From positions 1 to 64,000 of the forward strand of contig NZ_CP048030.1 in the NCBI RefSeq assembly GCF_010092425.1: DNA of 64,000 bases, read 5' to 3'. A program made the translations under genes and the position numbers. The notes under the pieces are model-generated. The model did no database searches. It was not told the DNA's origin and saw only the letters and a program-made list of their open reading frames with translations. The stretch is from Sinimarinibacterium sp. NLF-5-8. Its GTDB lineage: Bacteria; Pseudomonadota; Gammaproteobacteria; Nevskiales; Nevskiaceae. Shown here in pieces: positions 4,044 to 24,213 of this stretch. The first letter of the stretch is position 1; every line of letters begins with the position of its first letter.

Positions 4044-6007
4044 TTGCCGAACTCGGTCACTTTGCACTGCTGGCCGCACTGGCGGTCACCCTGATCCAGG
4101 GCACAGTGCCCTTCATCGGCGTCAGATTGCGCCAGCCCCGTCTGATGGCGGTGGGGGCTTCGGCGGCACAGGCACAGTTTGCCCTGGTGTTTTTGGCCTA
4201 TCTGTGCCTGACCCTTTCGTTTGTGAACATGGATTGGTCGGTGGCGTATGTGGCTGCCAACTCGCATTCCGAGCTGCCGCTGATGTACCGCATCAGCGCC
4301 GTCTGGGGAGCTCACGAAGGGTCGGTTTTGTTGTGGATTCTGATGCTCACCGGCTGGGGGGCAGCCGTATCCGTTTTCAGCCGCAGCCTGCCGCGTGATG
4401 TGCAGGCTCAGGTTCTGGGCGTGCTGGGTGCGCTGGGCATAGGCTTTTTGCTGTTTGTGCTGATGACCTCCAACCCGTTTGATCGCAACTTTCCGGTGCC
4501 GCTGGATGGCCGTGATCTCAACCCCTTGCTGCAAGACCCCGGATTGGTCATGCATCCGCCGCTGCTGTACATGGGCTATGTGGGGTTTTCGGTCGGGTTT
4601 GCGTTTGCGCTTACCGCGCTCATCAGTGGCCGCCTGGACGCGGCCTGGGCGCGCTGGACGCGTCCCTGGATCACCACCTCCTGGCTGTTTCTGACCCTGG
4701 GGATCACTCTGGGCTCGTGGTGGGCCTACAACGAGCTGGGCTGGGGCGGCTGGTGGTTCTGGGATCCGGTTGAAAATGCCTCGTTTTTACCGTGGCTGGT
4801 CGGCACTGCACTGATTCACTCGCTGGCGGTCAGCGAAAAACGTGGGCTGCTCAAATCATGGACCGTGTTGCTGGCGATCATCGCTTTTGCGTTGTCGCTG
4901 CTCGGCACCTTTCTGGTGCGCTCAGGGGTGCTGGTTTCGGTTCATGCGTTTGCGTCAGACCCCGCGCGCGGCATCTTCATCCTGGGGTTTTTGTGCCTGG
5001 TTCTGGGGATTGCCTTTGTGCTGTACGCCTGGCGCGCGCCACGCTTTGCCGCCGATGGCGAGCTCAACCTGTTTTCACGCGAAGGCTTTCTGCTGCTGAA
5101 CAACGTGTTTCTGGTGATTGCCGCCGCAGCGGTGTTGATCGGCACGCTGTACCCGCTGATTGCCGATGCCTTTGCCCTGGGCAAGATCTCGGTCGGGCCG
5201 CCTTATTTCAACAGTGTGTTTCTGCCGCTGACCGCACCGCTGGCGGTGCTGATGGGGTTGGCGTCGATTGTGGGATGGAAACGCGCCTCATGGCCGGAAA
5301 CCTTGCGCAAAATCCGGATTCCGGCCGCGGTGGCCCTGATTCTCGGCGCCCTGCTGCCGTGGCTGTTGCAGCATCAAACGCAGTGGATTGCGGTGGGTGG
5401 GAGCATCCTTGGCTTGTGGACGCTGGTCATGGCCTTCGAGGAACCGTGGCGGCGCTGGCGCCTGCGCGGCGCGCATGGCATTGCCCATACCCCGCGCGCG
5501 ATCTGGGGCATGTCGCTGGCACATTTCGGGATTGGCATCTGGATACTGGGCGTGACCTTCGTCAGCCTTTACAGCATCGAGCGCGATGTGCGCCTGGGCC
5601 CCGGGCAATCCACCGAACTCAGTGGCTATCGGTTTTCAATGGTCAACGTGACGCCCTATGTCGGCCCCAATTACCGCGCCGACCGCGCGCAGATGGTCAT
5701 CACCCAGGACGACAAAACCATTGCCACCCTGTGGCCGGAGCGGCGCCTGTACAACGCCCAGGGCAGTGTGATGACCGAGGCTTCGGTGAGTCACAACCCG
5801 CTGCGTGACCTGTATGTGGCGCTGGCCGAGCCGCTGGACAAGGGCGAATGGGCGTTGCGGGTGTATTACAAGCCGATGATGCGTCTGGTCTGGTTTGGTG
5901 GGGTGCTGATGGCGCTGGGCGGGGCGCTGGCGGCGACTGACCGGCGTTATCGTCTGGCGCGCGCGCTGGAGCGTTCGCGCGCGCCGGTTGAAGGAGCGCC
6001 AGCCTGA
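4040..6007 (+). CDS. ccmF: Heme lyase subunit CcmF
   Basis: A 655-residue polytopic protein, the size expected of gammaproteobacterial CcmF. It attaches heme to apocytochrome c together with CcmH and CcmI. The WWD domain appears as YNELGWGGWWFWDPVENA near residue 235, preceded by DLNPLLQDPGLVMHPP and followed by many transmembrane segments. The C-terminal periplasmic domain contains PERRLYNAQGSVMTEA. Its last base is shared with the ccmG ATG. No anomaly was seen. Confidence 0.97.
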   Translation: MIAELGHFALLAALAVTLIQGTVPFIGVRLRQPRLMAVGASAAQAQFALVFLAYLCLTLSFVNMDWSVAYVAANSHSELPLMYRISAVWGAHEGSVLLWILMLTGWGAAVSVFSRSLPRDVQAQVLGVLGALGIGFLLFVLMTSNPFDRNFPVPLDGRDLNPLLQDPGLVMHPPLLYMGYVGFSVGFAFALTALISGRLDAAWARWTRPWITTSWLFLTLGITLGSWWAYNELGWGGWWFWDPVENASFLPWLVGTALIHSLAVSEKRGLLKSWTVLLAIIAFALSLLGTFLVRSGVLVSVHAFASDPARGIFILGFLCLVLGIAFVLYAWRAPRFAADGELNLFSREGFLLLNNVFLVIAAAAVLIGTLYPLIADAFALGKISVGPPYFNSVFLPLTAPLAVLMGLASIVGWKRASWPETLRKIRIPAAVALILGALLPWLLQHQTQWIAVGGSILGLWTLVMAFEEPWRRWRLRGAHGIAHTPRAIWGMSLAHFGIGIWILGVTFVSLYSIERDVRLGPGQSTELSGYRFSMVNVTPYVGPNYRADRAQMVITQDDKTIATLWPERRLYNAQGSVMTEASVSHNPLRDLYVALAEPLDKGEWALRVYYKPMMRLVWFGGVLMALGGALAATDRRYRLARALERSRAPVEGAPA

Positions 6008-16576: not shown

Positions 16577-17098
16577 ATGTTCACGGCCTATATCGGACTG
16601 GGTGCCAATCTGGGCGATCCGCCACAGCAGTTACAGCGCGCGCTGACGTTGCTGGCAACGGTGTGTGAGGTGCAGGCGGTTTCGCCGGTTTACCGCAGCG
16701 CGCCGATGGGCCCCGCCGATCAACCCGATTACGCCAATGCGGTGTGCGTGCTCAAAACCGCGCGCGCGCCTGAGGATTTAATGCGCGCGCTGCTGGGTAT
16801 TGAGCAGCAAATGGGGCGGGTGCGCGCGTTGCACTGGGGGCCGCGCCTGATTGATCTGGATTTGCTGCATGTGGACGGCCAGCGCTGCCAAAGCGCGCTG
16901 TTAACGCTGCCGCATCCGGGCATTGCCCAACGCAATTTTGTGTTGCAACCCTTGCTGGACTTGGCCCCCAACCTGCTGATTGAGGGCGTTGGCGATCTGC
17001 GCGCGGCGTTGGCGCGCGTGGGCACGGCGGGTTTGCAGCGCTGGGACGATCAAGGCGCGCGCGCGTCGTCGCCGGATTCAATTACATGGCCGACATAG
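16577..17098 (+). CDS. folK: 2-amino-4-hydroxy-6-hydroxymethyldihydropteridine pyrophosphokinase FolK
   Basis: A 173-residue HPPK, transferring pyrophosphate from ATP to the pterin in folate synthesis. Visible motifs are YIGLGANLGDPPQQL at the N-terminus, SPVYRSAPMGPADQPDYAN, the Mg-binding WGPRLIDLDLLHVDG, and LPHPGIAQRNFVLQPLLDLA. Its last 49 bases overlap the end of the convergent HTH-citrate synthase gene on the other strand, so both C-termini are encoded by the same DNA. It follows pcnB closely and is probably co-transcribed. Confidence 0.95.
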   Translation: MFTAYIGLGANLGDPPQQLQRALTLLATVCEVQAVSPVYRSAPMGPADQPDYANAVCVLKTARAPEDLMRALLGIEQQMGRVRALHWGPRLIDLDLLHVDGQRCQSALLTLPHPGIAQRNFVLQPLLDLAPNLLIEGVGDLRAALARVGTAGLQRWDDQGARASSPDSITWPT

Positions 17099-18312
17099 CT
17101 GGCGCGCGGGCGGATCAAGCCGCCATCGGCTTGTTGTTCCAGCGCATGCGCAATCCAGCCCACAACGCGCCCGGCGGCAAATAAAATCAAGCTGGCGTCA
17201 GCCCCCAGTTCAAACGCATGGGCGAGCGCGGCCAGCGCAAAGTCGGTGCTCGGCGCCTGGCCGGTGGCTTCAAAGGCGGCGTCCATTAAGGTTTGAATGG
17301 CTTTGAAGCGCGCGGGGCGCGGGCGGCATTGCTGAATGCGTTTGAGCAACAAGCGCGCGCGCGGATCGCCCTGCGGATACAGCGGATGGCCGAACGTTGG
17401 CAGGGTTTCGCCGCGTTGCAGGCAGGCCAGGATGTAGCGCGGCGCCGATTCAGCGCGCAATGCCTCATCAATAAACGCATAAGCCTGTGCCGTGGCGCCG
17501 CCGTGCGCGGGGCCGGACAGGGCGGCCAGTCCGGCGCTGACCGCGCCATGCAGGCTGCCGCCGGTGGAGGCGACCACGCGCGCGGCAAAGGCGCTGGCGT
17601 TGAGCTCGTGATCGGCGCACAGCAGCAAGGCGGTGCGAATCAGCTCGGCGGCGTCGGCATCATCCGGTCGCCACGCTTGTGCAAACACTTGATGGGCGGG
17701 GCGATCATCGGCCGCCGTACCCGCCAGCAGTGCGGTGGTCTGGCGCAGCAATTGAGCGGCGCTTTGGCGGCGGCGCAGCGGATCGGGTGACCAGTCGCGC
17801 ACCGAGCTGGCGGCCAGCAAGGGCAGGGCGGCGGCGGTGCGATCCAGTGCGGGCAGGGTGGTTTCGCGCATCAGCGCGCGCACCACGCTGGGCCACGCCG
17901 GTGGCGGCGGCTGGCTGAACGGGTTGTTTTCACCGCAATCCCACAGCAGGCGAGCGGTGTCTTCCAGGCTGGCACCACTGGCCACCAGCTGGCTGACCGC
18001 GCGCCCTCGGTAGTAATGCCCTTCGGGGCGGATCAGCGAGACGCGTGTTTCCAGCACCGGCAAGCCCCAGGCGAGGCTGCTGGCGGCGCCTTGGGCAGCG
18101 CCGCGACCGGCATCTTTGCGTTCGATCAGGCGCTCAATGTCTTGCAGGCGGTAGAGGCGGTGGCGGCTGTCACCACTGCTGCGCGAATGCACCAGGCCAC
18201 GGCTGACATAGGCATACAGCGTGGACAGGCTCACGCCGAGGCGCTGGGCGGCATCGCGCGCGTTGATGTAGTCGCTGGAGGCGGTGGCGGCAGTGGCTTT
18301 GCGGATGGGCAT
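17050..18312 (-). CDS. Helix-turn-helix regulator fused to a citrate/methylcitrate synthase-like domain
   Basis: About 420 residues. The N-terminus (residues 1-60) is a MerR-type winged helix with DYINARDAAQRLGVSLSTLY and RHRLYRLQDIERL. The rest is a citrate synthase fold with the catalytic residues apparently intact: ADHELNASAFAARV, SGPAHGGATAQAY, TFGHPLYPQGDPRAR, TDFALAAL for the Asp, and GRVVGWIAHALEQ. It is divergent from prpB across a palindromic region. I infer a regulator of the methylcitrate operon that senses acyl-CoA or oxaloacetate through the synthase domain; whether it also catalyses is open. The ATG at 18312 is chosen over a TTG at 18345 that lies inside the operator. Confidence 0.85.
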   Translation of the reverse strand: MPIRKATAATASSDYINARDAAQRLGVSLSTLYAYVSRGLVHSRSSGDSRHRLYRLQDIERLIERKDAGRGAAQGAASSLAWGLPVLETRVSLIRPEGHYYRGRAVSQLVASGASLEDTARLLWDCGENNPFSQPPPPAWPSVVRALMRETTLPALDRTAAALPLLAASSVRDWSPDPLRRRQSAAQLLRQTTALLAGTAADDRPAHQVFAQAWRPDDADAAELIRTALLLCADHELNASAFAARVVASTGGSLHGAVSAGLAALSGPAHGGATAQAYAFIDEALRAESAPRYILACLQRGETLPTFGHPLYPQGDPRARLLLKRIQQCRPRPARFKAIQTLMDAAFEATGQAPSTDFALAALAHAFELGADASLILFAAGRVVGWIAHALEQQADGGLIRPRASYVGHVIESGDDARAP

Positions 18313-18332
18313 GAGGGCGCGCGGTGGATAGG

Positions 18333-18360
18333 TTGATTGGATCAATCAAGATTGATCAAT
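18333..18360. promoter_or_regulatory. Palindromic operator between the HTH-citrate synthase gene and prpB
   Basis: Two adjoining palindromes lie here: TTGATTG-GAT-CAATCAA (18333-18349, perfect 7-bp arms) and ATTGATCAAT (18351-18360, perfect). The repeated core is ATTG(G)ATCAAT. The site starts 21 bases upstream of the regulator ATG and lies 118 bases upstream of prpB. A dimeric regulator controlling both directions is the natural reading, but binding is inferred. Confidence 0.65.
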
Positions 18361-18477
18361 ACACCCCATTCTGACACAGTAAGCATCCACAGGTAGAGAG
18401 GCGCGCGCGGTGCTGCCTGCTTTGCCACTCCACTTTTTGCGCCGTTGTGGCGTTTGTTTGTTTGGGAGATGAATCCA

Positions 18478-19365
18478 ATGAGCACTTCTTCTGCTGGCGC
18501 GCGGTTTCGCGCCGCACTCGCGGCTGAAAAGCCTTTGCAGGTGATTGGCGCGATCAACGCCAACCACGCTTTGCTGGCACAGCGCGCGGGCTTTAAGGCG
18601 ATTTACCTCTCAGGGGGCGGTGTGGCCGCCGGCTCGCTGGGCCTGCCCGATTTGGGCATCAACACGCTGGATGATGTGCTCACCGATACCCGCCGCATTA
18701 CCGATGTCTGCGATCTGCCGCTGCTGGTGGACATTGACACCGGCTTTGGTCCGTCGGCGTTCAACATCGAGCGCACCATCAAGAGCCTGATCAAAGCCGG
18801 TGCGGCGGCCTGCCATATTGAAGACCAAGTGGGCGCCAAGCGCTGCGGCCACCGTCCGGGCAAGGAAATCGTCACCCAAGGTGAGATGGTGGATCGCGTC
18901 AAAGCCGCAGCCGATGCCAAAACCGACCCCAACTTTTTCTTGATCGCGCGCACTGATGCGATTCAGGCCGAAGGCGTGGATGCCGCCATTGAGCGCGCGA
19001 TTGCCTGCGTTGAAGCCGGTGCCGATGCGATTTTTGCTGAAGCCGCCTACGACCTGCCGACCTATAAAAAGTTTGTCGATGCCGTCAAAGCGCCGGTGCT
19101 GGCCAACATCACCGAGTTTGGCGCCACGCCGCTGTTTAGCCGCGATGAGCTGGCCTCGGTGGGCGTGAGCATTCAGCTGTTCCCGCTGTCGGCCTTTCGC
19201 GCTGCCAACAAAGCCGCCGAAGCGGTTTACAACTCAGTGCGCCAAAACGGCCATCAACGCGACGTGGTGGACACCATGCAAACCCGCGCCGAGCTGTACG
19301 ATCGCATCAACTACCATGCTTTTGAAAACAAGCTCGATGCGCTGTTTGCCGCCAAGAAAAAATAA
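18478..19365 (+). CDS. prpB: 2-methylisocitrate lyase PrpB
   Basis: A 295-residue isocitrate lyase-family protein. It splits 2-methylisocitrate into pyruvate and succinate, the last step of the methylcitrate cycle. The catalytic loop is [16 protein letters not shown] with the active-site Cys near residue 122. Metal-binding DIDTGFGP and the substrate region [20 protein letters not shown] are present. The ATG at 18478 has GGGAG upstream at 9-base spacing; an in-frame ATG 9 bases earlier is directly against the Shine-Dalgarno and less likely. prpC follows after 67 bases. Confidence 0.96.
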
Positions 19366-19432: not shown

Positions 19433-20590
19433 ATGTCTGAAGCAACCCCAACCCCAGGTTTTAAACCCAAAAAATCCGTTGCCCTGTCCGGCACCGCCGC
19501 AGGCAACACCGCGCTGTGCACCGTGGGCCGCAGCGGCAATGATCTGCACTACCGTGGCTATGACATTCTCGATCTCGCCACCACCTGCGAATTTGAAGAA
19601 GTCGCGCACTTGCTGGTGCACGGCAAGCTGCCCAACAAGGCCGAACTCGCCGCCTACAAAAACAAGCTCAAAGCCCTGCGCGGCCTGCCGGCTGCGGTTA
19701 AAACCGCGCTGGAACAACTGCCGCCGTCGGCGCACCCGATGGACGTGATGCGCACGGGCGTATCGGTTCTGGGCTGCGTAAAACCGGAAAAAGACGATCA
19801 CAACCACCCCGGCGCGCGCGATATTGCCGACAAGCTGATGGCCAGCCTCGGCTCCATGCTGCTGTACTGGTACCACTTTGCCTACAACGGCAACATCATC
19901 GACGTGGAAACCGACGATGACTCCATCGGCGGCCACTTCCTGCACTTGCTGCACCAGGAAAAACCGCGCGAATCATGGGTGCGCGCAATGCACACCAGCC
20001 TGATTCTGTACGCCGAGCACGAGTTCAACGCCTCCACCTTTACCTCGCGCGTGGTCGCCGGTACGGGTTCGGATATGTACAGCGCCATTTGCGGCGGCAT
20101 CGGCGCCCTGCGCGGGCCCAAGCACGGCGGCGCCAACGAAGTCGCGTTTGAAATCCAAAAACGCTACGAAACCCCGGACGAAGCCGAGGCCGACATCAAG
20201 GCGCGCGTGGAACGCAAAGAAGTGGTCATTGGCTTTGGTCACCCGGTTTACACCGTCTCCGATCCTCGTAACAAGGTCATCAAACAAGTGGCCAAAGAGC
20301 TGTCGGACGAAGAAAGCAACACCAAGATGTACGACATTGCCGAGCGTCTGGAAACGGTCATGTGGGACATCAAAAAAATGTTCCCCAACCTCGATTGGTT
20401 CAGCGCTGTGAGCTATCACATGATGGGCGTGCCCACCGATATGTTCACCCCACTGTTTGTGATTGCCCGCACCGCCGGCTGGAGCGCGCACGTGATCGAA
20501 CAACGTCAGGATGGCAAGATCATTCGCCCGTCGGCCAACTACACCGGCCCGGAAGATCAGAAGTTTGTGCCTTTGAAAGACCGTAAGTGA
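19433..20590 (+). CDS. prpC: 2-methylcitrate synthase PrpC
   Basis: A 385-residue citrate synthase-family enzyme that condenses propionyl-CoA and oxaloacetate. Catalytic histidines lie in [16 protein letters not shown] and [15 protein letters not shown]. The active-site Asp is in [16 protein letters not shown], and [14 protein letters not shown] is present. The opening [20 protein letters not shown] is the PrpC type rather than the longer hexameric GltA type. An AGGAG Shine-Dalgarno precedes the ATG. It sits between prpB and acnD in the expected order. Confidence 0.95.
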
Positions 20591-20691: not shown

Positions 20692-23304
20692 ATGAACAGT
20701 GCTTTTCGTAAAAAACTGCCCGGCAGTACGCTGGATTACTTTGACGCGCGCGAGGCCGTCAATGCGATCCAGGCCGGGGCGTGGGACAAGCTGCCGTATA
20801 CCGCGCGCGTCTACGCCGAAAACATCGTGCGCAAGGCCGATCCGGCCAAAATCAACGACTTTTTAGGCCAGTTGATCTATCGCAAACGCGATCTCGATTT
20901 TCCCTGGTTCCCGGTGCGCGTGGTCTGCCACGACATTCTGGGACAAACCGCGCTGGTCGATCTGGCCGGTCTGCGTGAAGCCATTGCTGCGCAAGGCGGC
21001 GATCCGGCGCAGGTCAACCCGGTGGTGCCGGTGCAGCTGATCGTCGATCACTCCTTGGCGGTGGAACACGCGGGCTTTGAAAAAGATGCGTTTGCCAAAA
21101 ACCGCGCGATTGAAGACCGCCGTAACGCCGACCGTTTTGACTTCATCGAATGGTGCAAGCTGGCGTTTGACAATGTGGATGTGATCCCCGCAGGCAACGG
21201 CATCATGCACCAGATCAATCTGGAGAAAATGTCGCCGGTGATCTACACCGACAAGGGCGTGGCCTTCCCCGACACCTGTGTCGGCACCGACTCGCACACC
21301 CCGCACGTTGATTCGCTGGGCGTGATCGCCATCGGCGTGGGCGGCATCGAAGCCGAAAGCGTCATGCTGGGTCGCGCTTCGTGGATGCGCCTGCCCGATA
21401 TTGTTGGCGTGGAGCTGACCGGCAAACCGCAGCCGGGCATCACCGCCACCGACGTGGTGCTGGCACTGACCGAGTTCCTGCGTAAAGAAAAAGTCGTTGG
21501 TGCTTATCTTGAGTTTCGCGGCGAAGGCGCAGCGGCGCTGACGCTGGGCGACCGCGCGACCATCTCCAACATGGCGCCGGAATACGGCGCGACTGCGGCG
21601 ATGTTCTACATCGACCAAAACACCATTGACTACCTCAAGCTCACCGGGCGTGACGATGAACAAATCAAGCTGGTGGAAAACTACGCCAAGCACACCGGCC
21701 TGTGGGCCGAGGCGCTGAAAACGGCGGAATACGAACGCACGCTGCACTTTGACCTGTCCACCGTGGTGCGTAACCTGGCCGGGCCGAGCAACCCGCACCG
21801 CCGCCTGCCGGTGACTGCGCTGCAAGAGCGTGGCATTGCTGGTGAGGACAAACTCGCCGCCGCGCGCGCCGAAGAAGCGCAAGGCTTGATGCCGGATGGT
21901 GCGGTGATCATCGCCGCCATCACCAGCTGCACCAACACCTCCAACCCGCGCAACGTCGTGGCTGCTGGCTTGATCGCGCGCAACGCCGTGCAAAAAGGTC
22001 TGGTGCGCAAGCCGTGGGTCAAATCCTCACTGGCGCCCGGCTCCAAAACCGTGGAGATGTACCTCAAAGACGCCAACCTGCTGGGCAGTCTGGAACAGCT
22101 GGGCTTTGGCATCGTCGCCTTTGCCTGCACCACCTGTAACGGCATGAGTGGCGCGCTAGACCCGGTGATTCAAAAAGAAATCATCGACCGCGACCTGTAT
22201 ACCGCCGCCGTGTTGTCGGGCAACCGCAACTTTGATGGCCGCATCCACCCGTATGCCAAGCAGGCTTTTTTGGCCAGCCCGCCGCTGGTGGTGGCCTATG
22301 CGATTGCCGGCACCGTGCGTTTTGACATCGAAAAAGACGCGCTGGGCACGGACAGCAACGGCCAGCCGGTTTATCTGAAAGACATCTGGCCGGATGATGC
22401 CGAGATCGACGCCATCGTTGCCGCGCACGTCAAACCGGAGTTTTTCCGCACCGTGTACGAGCCGATGTTCGCCTTCAAAACGGTGGAAGAAAAAGCCAAG
22501 CCACTGTACGACTGGCGGCCACAGAGCACCTACATTCGCTCGCCTCCGTACTGGGAAGGCGCGCTGGCCGACAAGCCGGTGCTCAAGGGCTTGCGTCCGC
22601 TGGCGGTGTTTGGTGACAACATCACCACCGACCATATTTCCCCGTCCAACGCCATCCTGCGCAGCAGCGCAGCCGGTGAGTATCTCGACAAAATGGGCCT
22701 GCCGGAGGAGGACTACAACTCCTACGCCACCCATCGCGGCGATCACCTCACCGCGCAGCGCGCGACCTTTGCCAACCCCAAGCTGTTCAACGAGATGGTC
22801 AAGGATGCCGACGGCAAGGTGCGTCAAGGCTCGTTGGCGCGGGTGGAGCCGGAAGGCGAAGTCAAGCGCATGTGGGAAGCGATCGAAACCTATATGGATC
22901 GCAAGCAATCGCTGATCATCATCGCCGGTGCCGACTACGGCCAAGGCTCCAGCCGCGACTGGGCGGCCAAGGGCGTGCGTCTGGCCGGTGTTGAAGTGAT
23001 CGTGGCTGAAGGCTTTGAGCGCATCCACCGCACCAACTTGTTTGGCATGGGCGTGTTGCCGCTGCAATTCAAATCCGGCACCACGCGCCTGACGCTGGAC
23101 ATCGATGGCACGGAAACCTTTGACGTCAAAGGCGAGCCGACCCCGCGCGGTGAAATGACGCTGGTCATCAATCGCAAAAATGGTGAAACCGTTGAAGTGC
23201 CGGTGATCTGCCGCCTGGATTCGGACGAAGACGTCGCCATCTATGAAGCCGGCGGCTTGTTGCCGCGCTTTGCCAAAGACTTCATGGCTGGCAAAACCGC
23301 TTAA
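20692..23304 (+). CDS. acnD: Fe/S-dependent 2-methylcitrate dehydratase AcnD
   Basis: An 870-residue aconitase-superfamily enzyme. Cluster cysteines are seen in AAITSCTNTSNPRNV and FACTTCNGMSGALD. The substrate-site region CVGTDSHTPHVDSLGVIA and the swivel-domain GADYGQGSSRDWAAKG are also present. The N-terminus MNSAFRKKLPGSTLDYFDAR is the AcnD type seen in prp operons, not AcnA. It dehydrates 2-methylcitrate to 2-methyl-aconitate. AcnD normally works with the isomerase PrpF; no prpF is found next to it here. Confidence 0.93.
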   Translation: MNSAFRKKLPGSTLDYFDAREAVNAIQAGAWDKLPYTARVYAENIVRKADPAKINDFLGQLIYRKRDLDFPWFPVRVVCHDILGQTALVDLAGLREAIAAQGGDPAQVNPVVPVQLIVDHSLAVEHAGFEKDAFAKNRAIEDRRNADRFDFIEWCKLAFDNVDVIPAGNGIMHQINLEKMSPVIYTDKGVAFPDTCVGTDSHTPHVDSLGVIAIGVGGIEAESVMLGRASWMRLPDIVGVELTGKPQPGITATDVVLALTEFLRKEKVVGAYLEFRGEGAAALTLGDRATISNMAPEYGATAAMFYIDQNTIDYLKLTGRDDEQIKLVENYAKHTGLWAEALKTAEYERTLHFDLSTVVRNLAGPSNPHRRLPVTALQERGIAGEDKLAAARAEEAQGLMPDGAVIIAAITSCTNTSNPRNVVAAGLIARNAVQKGLVRKPWVKSSLAPGSKTVEMYLKDANLLGSLEQLGFGIVAFACTTCNGMSGALDPVIQKEIIDRDLYTAAVLSGNRNFDGRIHPYAKQAFLASPPLVVAYAIAGTVRFDIEKDALGTDSNGQPVYLKDIWPDDAEIDAIVAAHVKPEFFRTVYEPMFAFKTVEEKAKPLYDWRPQSTYIRSPPYWEGALADKPVLKGLRPLAVFGDNITTDHISPSNAILRSSAAGEYLDKMGLPEEDYNSYATHRGDHLTAQRATFANPKLFNEMVKDADGKVRQGSLARVEPEGEVKRMWEAIETYMDRKQSLIIIAGADYGQGSSRDWAAKGVRLAGVEVIVAEGFERIHRTNLFGMGVLPLQFKSGTTRLTLDIDGTETFDVKGEPTPRGEMTLVINRKNGETVEVPVICRLDSDEDVAIYEAGGLLPRFAKDFMAGKTA

Positions 23305-23376: not shown

Positions 23377-23655
23377 ATGAAAACCTTGCCTGATGAGGTC
23401 AAGCCGTTTGAACGCACGCCAGAGTTTGATGCCAGCTCGGTGCCGGTGGGGCTGCTGCGCGGCCATCACACTTCGCACGGCGTATGGGGCGCAATCACCG
23501 TGTTGCAAGGCCGGGTGATTTACCGCATCAACAGCACGCCTGCCGAAGAAGTGACGCTGACGCCGGGTGTGGTCGGCATTATTGAGCCGGATGTGCCGCA
23601 CTCGGTTGAACTGCTGGATGGCGCGCGCTTTTTTGTCCAGTTTTACAAAGCCTAA
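23377..23655 (+). CDS. DUF1971 family small cupin-like protein (TehB N-terminal-like)
   Basis: A 92-residue protein reading PVGLLRGHHTSHGVWGAITV, VLQGRVIYRIN and GVVGIIEPDVPHSVELLDGA. This is the compact beta-fold of the DUF1971 family, also found in front of tellurite-resistance methyltransferase domains. Two histidines near residues 29-32 and one near 70 could bind a metal or small ligand. AAGGAG precedes the ATG closely. It follows acnD by about 70 bases and may be read through with the prp operon, but a direct role in propionate use is not shown. Confidence 0.75.
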   Translation: MKTLPDEVKPFERTPEFDASSVPVGLLRGHHTSHGVWGAITVLQGRVIYRINSTPAEEVTLTPGVVGIIEPDVPHSVELLDGARFFVQFYKA

Positions 23656-23692
23656 AAAGCCTAAAAAGCCCGAGCTTTTGAATGTTGTTTTT

Positions 23693-23726
23693 GTAAAAGC
23701 CCGTTGATGGTACAGCGGGCTTTTAC
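23693..23726 (+). terminator. Intrinsic terminator after the DUF1971 gene
   Basis: GTAAAAGCCCG pairs perfectly with CGGGCTTTTAC over 11 bp around a 12-base loop, followed by TTTT at 23727. It ends only about 20 bases before the next ATG, whose AGGAG Shine-Dalgarno lies just beyond. Confidence 0.7.
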
Positions 23727-23745
23727 TTTTTCAGGAGTCGTAAAA

Positions 23746-24213
23746 ATGACGCAACGATTGAACTATCAAACCGCCTCGCCCGAGGCGTTTAAAGCCCTGC
23801 TGCATGTTGAGCAAGTGATCCGCCGCTTAGGGCTGGATGAGAATCTGCTGGAACTGCTGAAAACGCGCGCCTCACAGCTCAACGGCTGCGCCTGGTGCCT
23901 GGATATGCACACCAAAGATGCGCTGGCGCGCGGTGAAACCGCACAGCGCCTGTTCCTGCTCAGTGGCTGGCGCGACACGCCGTGCTACAGCGACAAAGAG
24001 CGCGCGATGCTGGCCTGGGTTGAAGCCGTCACCACGCTGCAAGGCCAAAGCGTGCCGGACGATGTGTACAACGACGCGCGCAAGCACTTTGACGAAAAGC
24101 AGCTGGTGGATTTGACCTTGGCGATCATCGCCATCAACGGCTGGAACCGGCTGAATGTGGCGTTCAGAACCACGGTGGGGGATTACGTCAGCCCGCATGG
24201 CAAGGCTGCTTAG
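23746..24213 (+). CDS. AhpD-like carboxymuconolactone decarboxylase family protein
   Basis: A 155-residue alpha-helical protein. The AhpD/CMD signature is QLNGCAWCLDMHTKDALARG with the CxxC pair and the downstream His near residues 49-56. The second half has DLTLAIIAINGWNRLNVAFR, typical of the alkylhydroperoxidase core. Members act as peroxidases or thiol oxidoreductases. The ATG at 23746 follows an AGGAG; upstream in-frame codons run through the terminator and are rejected. Its link to the prp operon is only by position. Confidence 0.85.
   Translation: MTQRLNYQTASPEAFKALLHVEQVIRRLGLDENLLELLKTRASQLNGCAWCLDMHTKDALARGETAQRLFLLSGWRDTPCYSDKERAMLAWVEAVTTLQGQSVPDDVYNDARKHFDEKQLVDLTLAIIAINGWNRLNVAFRTTVGDYVSPHGKAA

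Follow-up and report, generated by a model that had tools for sequence, protein, structure and literature searches.

A citrate synthase-fused helix-turn-helix protein as predicted regulator of the methylcitrate operon in Sinimarinibacterium sp. NLF-5-8

PrpR_N proteins (PF06506) are sigma54 activators, and in the loci compared here they stand divergent from prpB, the first gene of the methylcitrate (prp) operon, in 10 of 12 cases. The PrpR of Pseudomonas aeruginosa is a one-component prp repressor according to the available part of its description (PMC9765439). It is of the GntR type, with a winged helix-turn-helix (HTH) and an FCD domain. In the first 64,000 nucleotides of contig NZ_CP048030.1 from Sinimarinibacterium sp. 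NLF-5-8 (the whole stretch analysed, hereafter the window), a MerR-type HTH fused to citrate synthase is encoded divergently from prpB-prpC-acnD, and comparative genomics makes it very probable that this fusion is a dedicated regulator of the operon, acting through the operator predicted between them. It would share operon and position with sigma54-type PrpR, and the role of one-component repressor with the P. aeruginosa protein; unlike the former it lacks the PrpR_N domain and has a different operator, and unlike the latter it joins a MerR-type HTH to citrate synthase. Neither PrpR_N nor the combination of GntR HTH and FCD was among its Pfam matches.

With the MerR family the fusion shares the type of DNA-binding domain and the long helix that follows the HTH; it differs in having a whole enzyme as sensor and in the spacer of its target promoter (17 against 19–20 bases). 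A phmmer search of residues 1–80 against the PDB returned six weak matches (E 0.0025 to 0.73), to GlnR, SoxR, Mta, SkgA, SeqA and an AlpA-family protein. GabR/MocR regulators, in which an HTH is fused to an aminotransferase fold, likewise use an enzyme fold as sensor, although both HTH and enzyme differ from those of the fusion; by analogy, the latter would operate in the manner of GabR and other one-component regulators derived from enzymes. No paper on an HTH–citrate synthase regulator was found in the open-access literature, a search that did not cover Suvorova et al. 2012, the likeliest earlier comparative study, and a prior description is possible; none of the 50 database matches listed is described as an HTH fusion, which excludes nothing.

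The fusion protein and its methylcitrate neighbours

The initial annotation described a MerR-like domain on a full-length citrate synthase fold that keeps both catalytic histidines and the aspartate, and the profiles agree with it. Pfam HTH_17 matches residues 17–66 at 32.9 bits (cut-off 27) and MerR_1 reaches 27.7 bits (cut-off 21.6), with PF00376 MerR at 26.9, under its cut-off of 28.2; Citrate_synt matches residues 82–403 at 208.4 bits over profile positions 3–357 of 357, so the fold is complete. The predicted structure comprises an HTH, hairpin strands 43–45 and 52–55 forming a MerR-type wing, and a long helix after the HTH. All seven active-site residues are present (Table 1), and we take them to be the equivalents, in the same order, of H238, H274, H320, R329, D375, R401 and R421 of pig citrate synthase.

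The facing operon is as annotated, since prpB, prpC and acnD all exceed their NCBIfam equivalog cut-offs (Table 1). Among 85 genomes of the order (window genome included), four have a close ortholog of the window protein, at 72–76% identity, and the fusion faces prpB-prpC-acnD in these four as in the window. Among 369 genomes of the class, 5 have a match at E 1e-40 or better, and among 398 of the phylum, 48 do (the window's own genome being counted in both); in the family of genome G096 the figure is 25 of 119, and all 24 loci there that include upstream sequence have prpB opposite the fusion (L176 is cut off). The fusion also faces prpB in G827, and acnD followed by prpF in G448. The HTH–citrate synthase pair is widespread, beyond a single strain; a plasmid search for the fusion gave nothing at 1e-40. 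Across the window's branch, all 31 loci with upstream sequence, the window's own among them, have methylcitrate genes opposite the fusion, which answers the earlier concern that such fusions might be found mostly beside unrelated genes.

In the analysed set, the best 80 of 356 relatives, a stand-alone citrate synthase is the divergent neighbour at 49 loci and a coenzyme A (CoA)-transferase III at 25; one locus has an HMGL-like protein there, and the remaining 5 have no recognised partner, L044 among them having a synthase-like frame dropped by the distance filter and L079 having no upstream sequence. For the phylum survey, with neighbours viewed at 30 of 49 match places, the 24 non-prp loci face a partner synthase in 20 cases, a CoA-transferase in 3 and neither in 1. 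Judged from these genes, partners outside the window's branch belong mostly to CoA or organic-acid metabolism.

The curated synthase threshold is missed by the fusion, the best NCBIfam enzyme model scoring 157.7 against a cut-off of 332, and a separate clade likewise distinguishes it from PrpC and citrate synthase II. In a quick tree of 70 citrate synthase domains, with long branches and with rows recruited by similarity to the window protein, 50 fusion rows lie on one side of a branch with a Shimodaira–Hasegawa-like approximate likelihood ratio (SH-aLRT) support of 100, and the 15 prp-type fusion rows cluster in a clade (99) that is distinct from GltA, PrpC and the partner synthases. Given this separation, the idea that the regulator arose from the PrpC it faces was rejected.

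Predicted operator and promoter geometry

A common upstream motif emerged for fusions with differing partners (74 loci; six of the 80 were omitted for want of an anchor). Training on 44 sites, taken from 49 loci that have a partner synthase and come mostly from alphaproteobacteria, gave a 32-base matrix; loci were assigned to the groups having or lacking a partner synthase by neighbour gene and not by taxonomy. In held-out tests, 29 of 30 loci without partner synthase beat all 600 shuffles (this set includes L022, L032, L037 and L076, with no recognised CoA-transferase or of other kinds; L079, with just 29 bases upstream, was excluded), and 11 of 11 loci from further genomes beat all 220. A second scoring round, omitting L089, L147, L152 and L176, placed 49 of 51 loci (six from genomes in the earlier test) at a score of at least 24, the exceptions being L113 (in G190) and L146. 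At L046 the score upstream of the fusion is low, and a site of 34.5 lies at 4277–4308 near the partner synthase. Apart from the predicted operator (Table 1), the matrix gives just one site above 0 in the window, scoring 0.3.

The operator had initially been placed in a 28-base stretch with two palindromes. Both sequences, ATTGGATCAAT and ATTGATCAAT, are indeed present; the conserved element is larger and consists of three half-sites, TTGAT (18333–18337), AATCAA (18344–18349) and TTGATCAA (18352–18359), its conserved form among relatives being TCAATnTTGAT-N7-RTCAA. The centre of the first claimed palindrome coincides with a spacer that varies among relatives, and TTGATCAA occurs upstream of the fusion in just 10 of 74 more distant loci. 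The conserved 17-mer AATCAAGATTGATCAAT does not appear to be due to chance, because it is identical in all five close genomes (window included), with TTGA upstream of it, and occurs as a single copy in the 3.2-Mb genome, where the next best match has 2 mismatches. A large regulon in the window genome was rejected, the two next-best sites for the degenerate pattern having 1 mismatch to it, and the next-best match to the 17-mer having 2.

Each of the 13 fusion genomes examined contains exactly one perfect match to TCAATNTTGATN7RTCAA, immediately upstream of the fusion gene, and none of 9 genomes that have PrpR_N and no prp-type fusion contains one; the matrix had already detected these 13 sites, and the added information is the uniqueness per genome and the absence from the nine PrpR_N genomes. 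In these comparisons, the operator follows the regulator rather than the operon, which, with the 31 branch loci, supports the initial reading of the fusion as a prp-operon regulator. That an unlinked regulator binds the predicted operator, the fusion being a mere neighbour, is very improbable given the single perfect site beside each fusion gene, its absence from the nine genomes without the prp-type fusion and its presence at fusions with unrelated partners.

The target-side end of the operator reads TTGATC in 31 of 31 prp loci, and a −10-like hexamer preceded by TG lies 17 bases past it in 30 of 31. A scan of the −10 consensus by offset, using approximate hexamer weights, gave 17 bases as the best predicted spacer in the prp set (z 14.1) and the partner-synthase set (z 5.9), with a peak at 16 bases (z 4.6) in the set without partner synthase. 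The available part of PMC8113463 gives 19–20 bases as the spacer of promoters that MerR proteins activate; at the target promoters analysed here such a spacer did not come out best, and classical MerR activation was rejected on present evidence. Repression is favoured because a protein bound to the operator would sit over the −35 box of a promoter that is normal in other respects, with its 17-base spacer, and the fusion is quite probably a repressor rather than an activator. Activation would mean that the protein, sitting at the −35 region, responds to its ligand in MerR fashion by recruiting or remodelling RNA polymerase. The MerR-type domain and a prpB −10 far off consensus (CAGATT or CACAGT) would suit this, as would PrpR, the alternating regulator, which activates in Salmonella according to the accessible text of PMC12153269; with best spacers of 17 or 16 bases and the −35 itself under the operator, we consider it unlikely.

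Table 1. Features of the fusion gene, the predicted operator and promoter, and the methylcitrate operon in the window.
Feature	Position	Strand	Remarks
HTH–citrate synthase fusion, proposed prp regulator	17050..18312	-	ATG at 18312, 420 amino acids
MerR/HTH_17-type DNA-binding domain and following long helix	18073..18264	-	residues 17-80
Citrate synthase domain	17104..18069	-	residues 82-403; H235, H270, H309, R318, D357, R382, R401
Predicted operator, 32-base motif	18328..18359	-	matrix score 34.1
Proposed -35 box of prpB, TTGATC	18352..18357	+	within operator
Proposed extended -10 of prpB, TGA CACAGT	18372..18380	+	17-base spacer from -35
prpB, 2-methylisocitrate lyase	18478..19365	+	ATG at 18478; NCBIfam equivalog 520.5 bits, cut-off 353
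prpC, 2-methylcitrate synthase	19433..20590	+	NCBIfam equivalog 726.5 bits, cut-off 550
acnD, Fe/S (iron-sulfur) 2-methylisocitrate dehydratase	20692..23304	+	NCBIfam equivalog 1682.4 bits, cut-off 1419.85

For the fusion gene, a TTG start at 18345, giving the longest frame, was rejected because the frame would traverse the conserved operator. In the four close relatives (L102–L105), the likely ATG comes a few bases after TATATC or TATATG; the little space left for a ribosome site suggests a possible leaderless mRNA there, and the window sequence has diverged at this place. The regulator gene is convergent with folK (16577–17098, plus strand), and their 3′ ends overlap by 49 bases (17050–17098). 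Downstream of acnD lie a DUF1971/cupin gene and an AhpD-like gene (23377–24213), and prpF is located apart from the operon, at 1194718 of the genome.

Alternation with PrpR_N and conservation of the active site

PrpR_N was found in 40 of the 85 genomes of the order and in 12 of the 119 from the family of G096, in neither set together with a prp-type fusion. Of the 11 genomes in the window's genus, four have the fusion and exactly the remaining seven have PrpR_N, for which the window genome as a whole gave no match; G008 has PrpR_N alongside a catalysis-lost fusion in another context. The fusion's operator is absent from the 12 PrpR_N loci (best score −11.1), one of which, L188, contains GTTGCAA-N2-TTGCAAC, given as the site of Xanthomonas citri PrpR in the available part of PMC12153269, whose authors compare this protein with Salmonella PrpR. 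The X. citri protein is taken here to be of the PrpR_N type and not a member of the HTH–citrate synthase family.

All of the best 80 relatives and all 5 close relatives keep the seven active-site residues intact, as do 49 of 54 rows in a second set. Stand-alone partner synthases (e.g., L005, 3785–4936, minus strand) have the catalytic Asp replaced by Glu in 48 of 49 cases and show a gap in the other; fusions of L001–L080 retain the Asp in 80 of 80. The five exceptions of the second set (L113, L146, L148, L090 and L091) all keep the HTH, with a strong operator at L148, L090 and L091, a weak one at L113 and none at L146. Because the residue-losing relatives retain the HTH and, in four of five, an operator-like site, DNA binding can outlast catalysis in other branches; in the window's branch the protein may retain catalysis.

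Three or more of the seven residues are lost in G024 (L090/L106) and G008 (L091/L107). At L106 and L107, where the catalytic His and Asp are lost, two or more operator-like sites lie beside genes for a major facilitator superfamily (MFS) transporter and TonB-dependent receptors, and these fusions possibly represent a pure-sensor branch. In G190, L117 (4733–5734, minus strand) has one catalytic His replaced by Ile and the Asp by Glu, and lies opposite a gene for a tripartite tricarboxylate transporter receptor.

Intact residues would suit a protein that is mainly a further (methyl)citrate synthase, its HTH serving its own gene at most while another protein controls prpB. The window genome already encodes gltA besides prpC, the operator precedes differing target genes and is absent where PrpR_N is present, and the five residue-losing relatives keep their HTH; we regard this explanation as improbable. 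A bolder scheme, in our view quite unlikely, would make the fusion a trigger enzyme: a working methylcitrate or citrate synthase that switches DNA binding through the opening and closing of its catalytic cycle and thereby measures propionyl-CoA by turnover. The fusion and its near-constant operator would form an old, transferable module, present in several proteobacterial groups and perhaps Chloroflexota. Its targets would have shifted among methylcitrate genes, a CoA-transferase and a separate citrate synthase, and also to transporters and receptors in the branches that lost catalysis.

Proposed mechanism and its meaning

Taken as a whole, it is likely that the fusion is a one-component regulator of the methylcitrate operon with citrate synthase as sensor, repressing until a ligand releases it. 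Without inducer, it would bind the operator's three half-sites in the region that separates prpB from the regulator gene, covering the −35 box and repressing prpB-prpC-acnD and probably its own gene as well. When propionyl-CoA flux rises, a pocket ligand, most likely 2-methylcitrate or the propionyl-CoA/oxaloacetate pair, would close the domain, and closure would shift the two HTH domains of the dimer and free the −35 box; both the dimer and domain closure are known from the citrate synthase enzyme family. The fusion would so occupy the place held in other genomes by the sigma54-type PrpR_N regulator. The ligand is reasonably likely to be one of the substrates of methylcitrate synthase or its product, and the choice of 2-methylcitrate in particular is tentative, held with less than even confidence.

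Several points weigh against this scheme. The matrix finds no operator site at L032 or L146, and the sites at L037 (Ktedonobacter, 3.0) and in G190 (7.4) are weak and on the reversed strand. In the prp set the second-highest score (z 11.2) falls on a 9-base spacer, shorter than a promoter would allow, so the spacer statistic partly mirrors sequence conservation. Kinship among the genomes inflates every count, and the single overlap tests (hypergeometric P 0.037 in the order, 0.050 in the family of G096) are weak support for exclusion between the regulators. Near-universally intact catalytic residues would equally fit a working enzyme, and no binding, expression or ligand data on the HTH–citrate synthase family were found in the literature. 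The available part of PMC12153269 describes X. citri PrpR as unresponsive to 2-methylcitrate and propionate as inducing prp without PrpR; a second regulator could therefore act in the window genome too.

If the proposed regulation holds, citrate synthase, an enzyme of central metabolism, would join the enzymes turned into sensors of transcription factors, and the methylcitrate cycle would have a further, unrelated mode of control that swaps with PrpR within one genus. The few members that have lost catalytic residues would offer a natural comparison of sensing and catalysis, and the well-kept operator would make the targets of many such fusions predictable.
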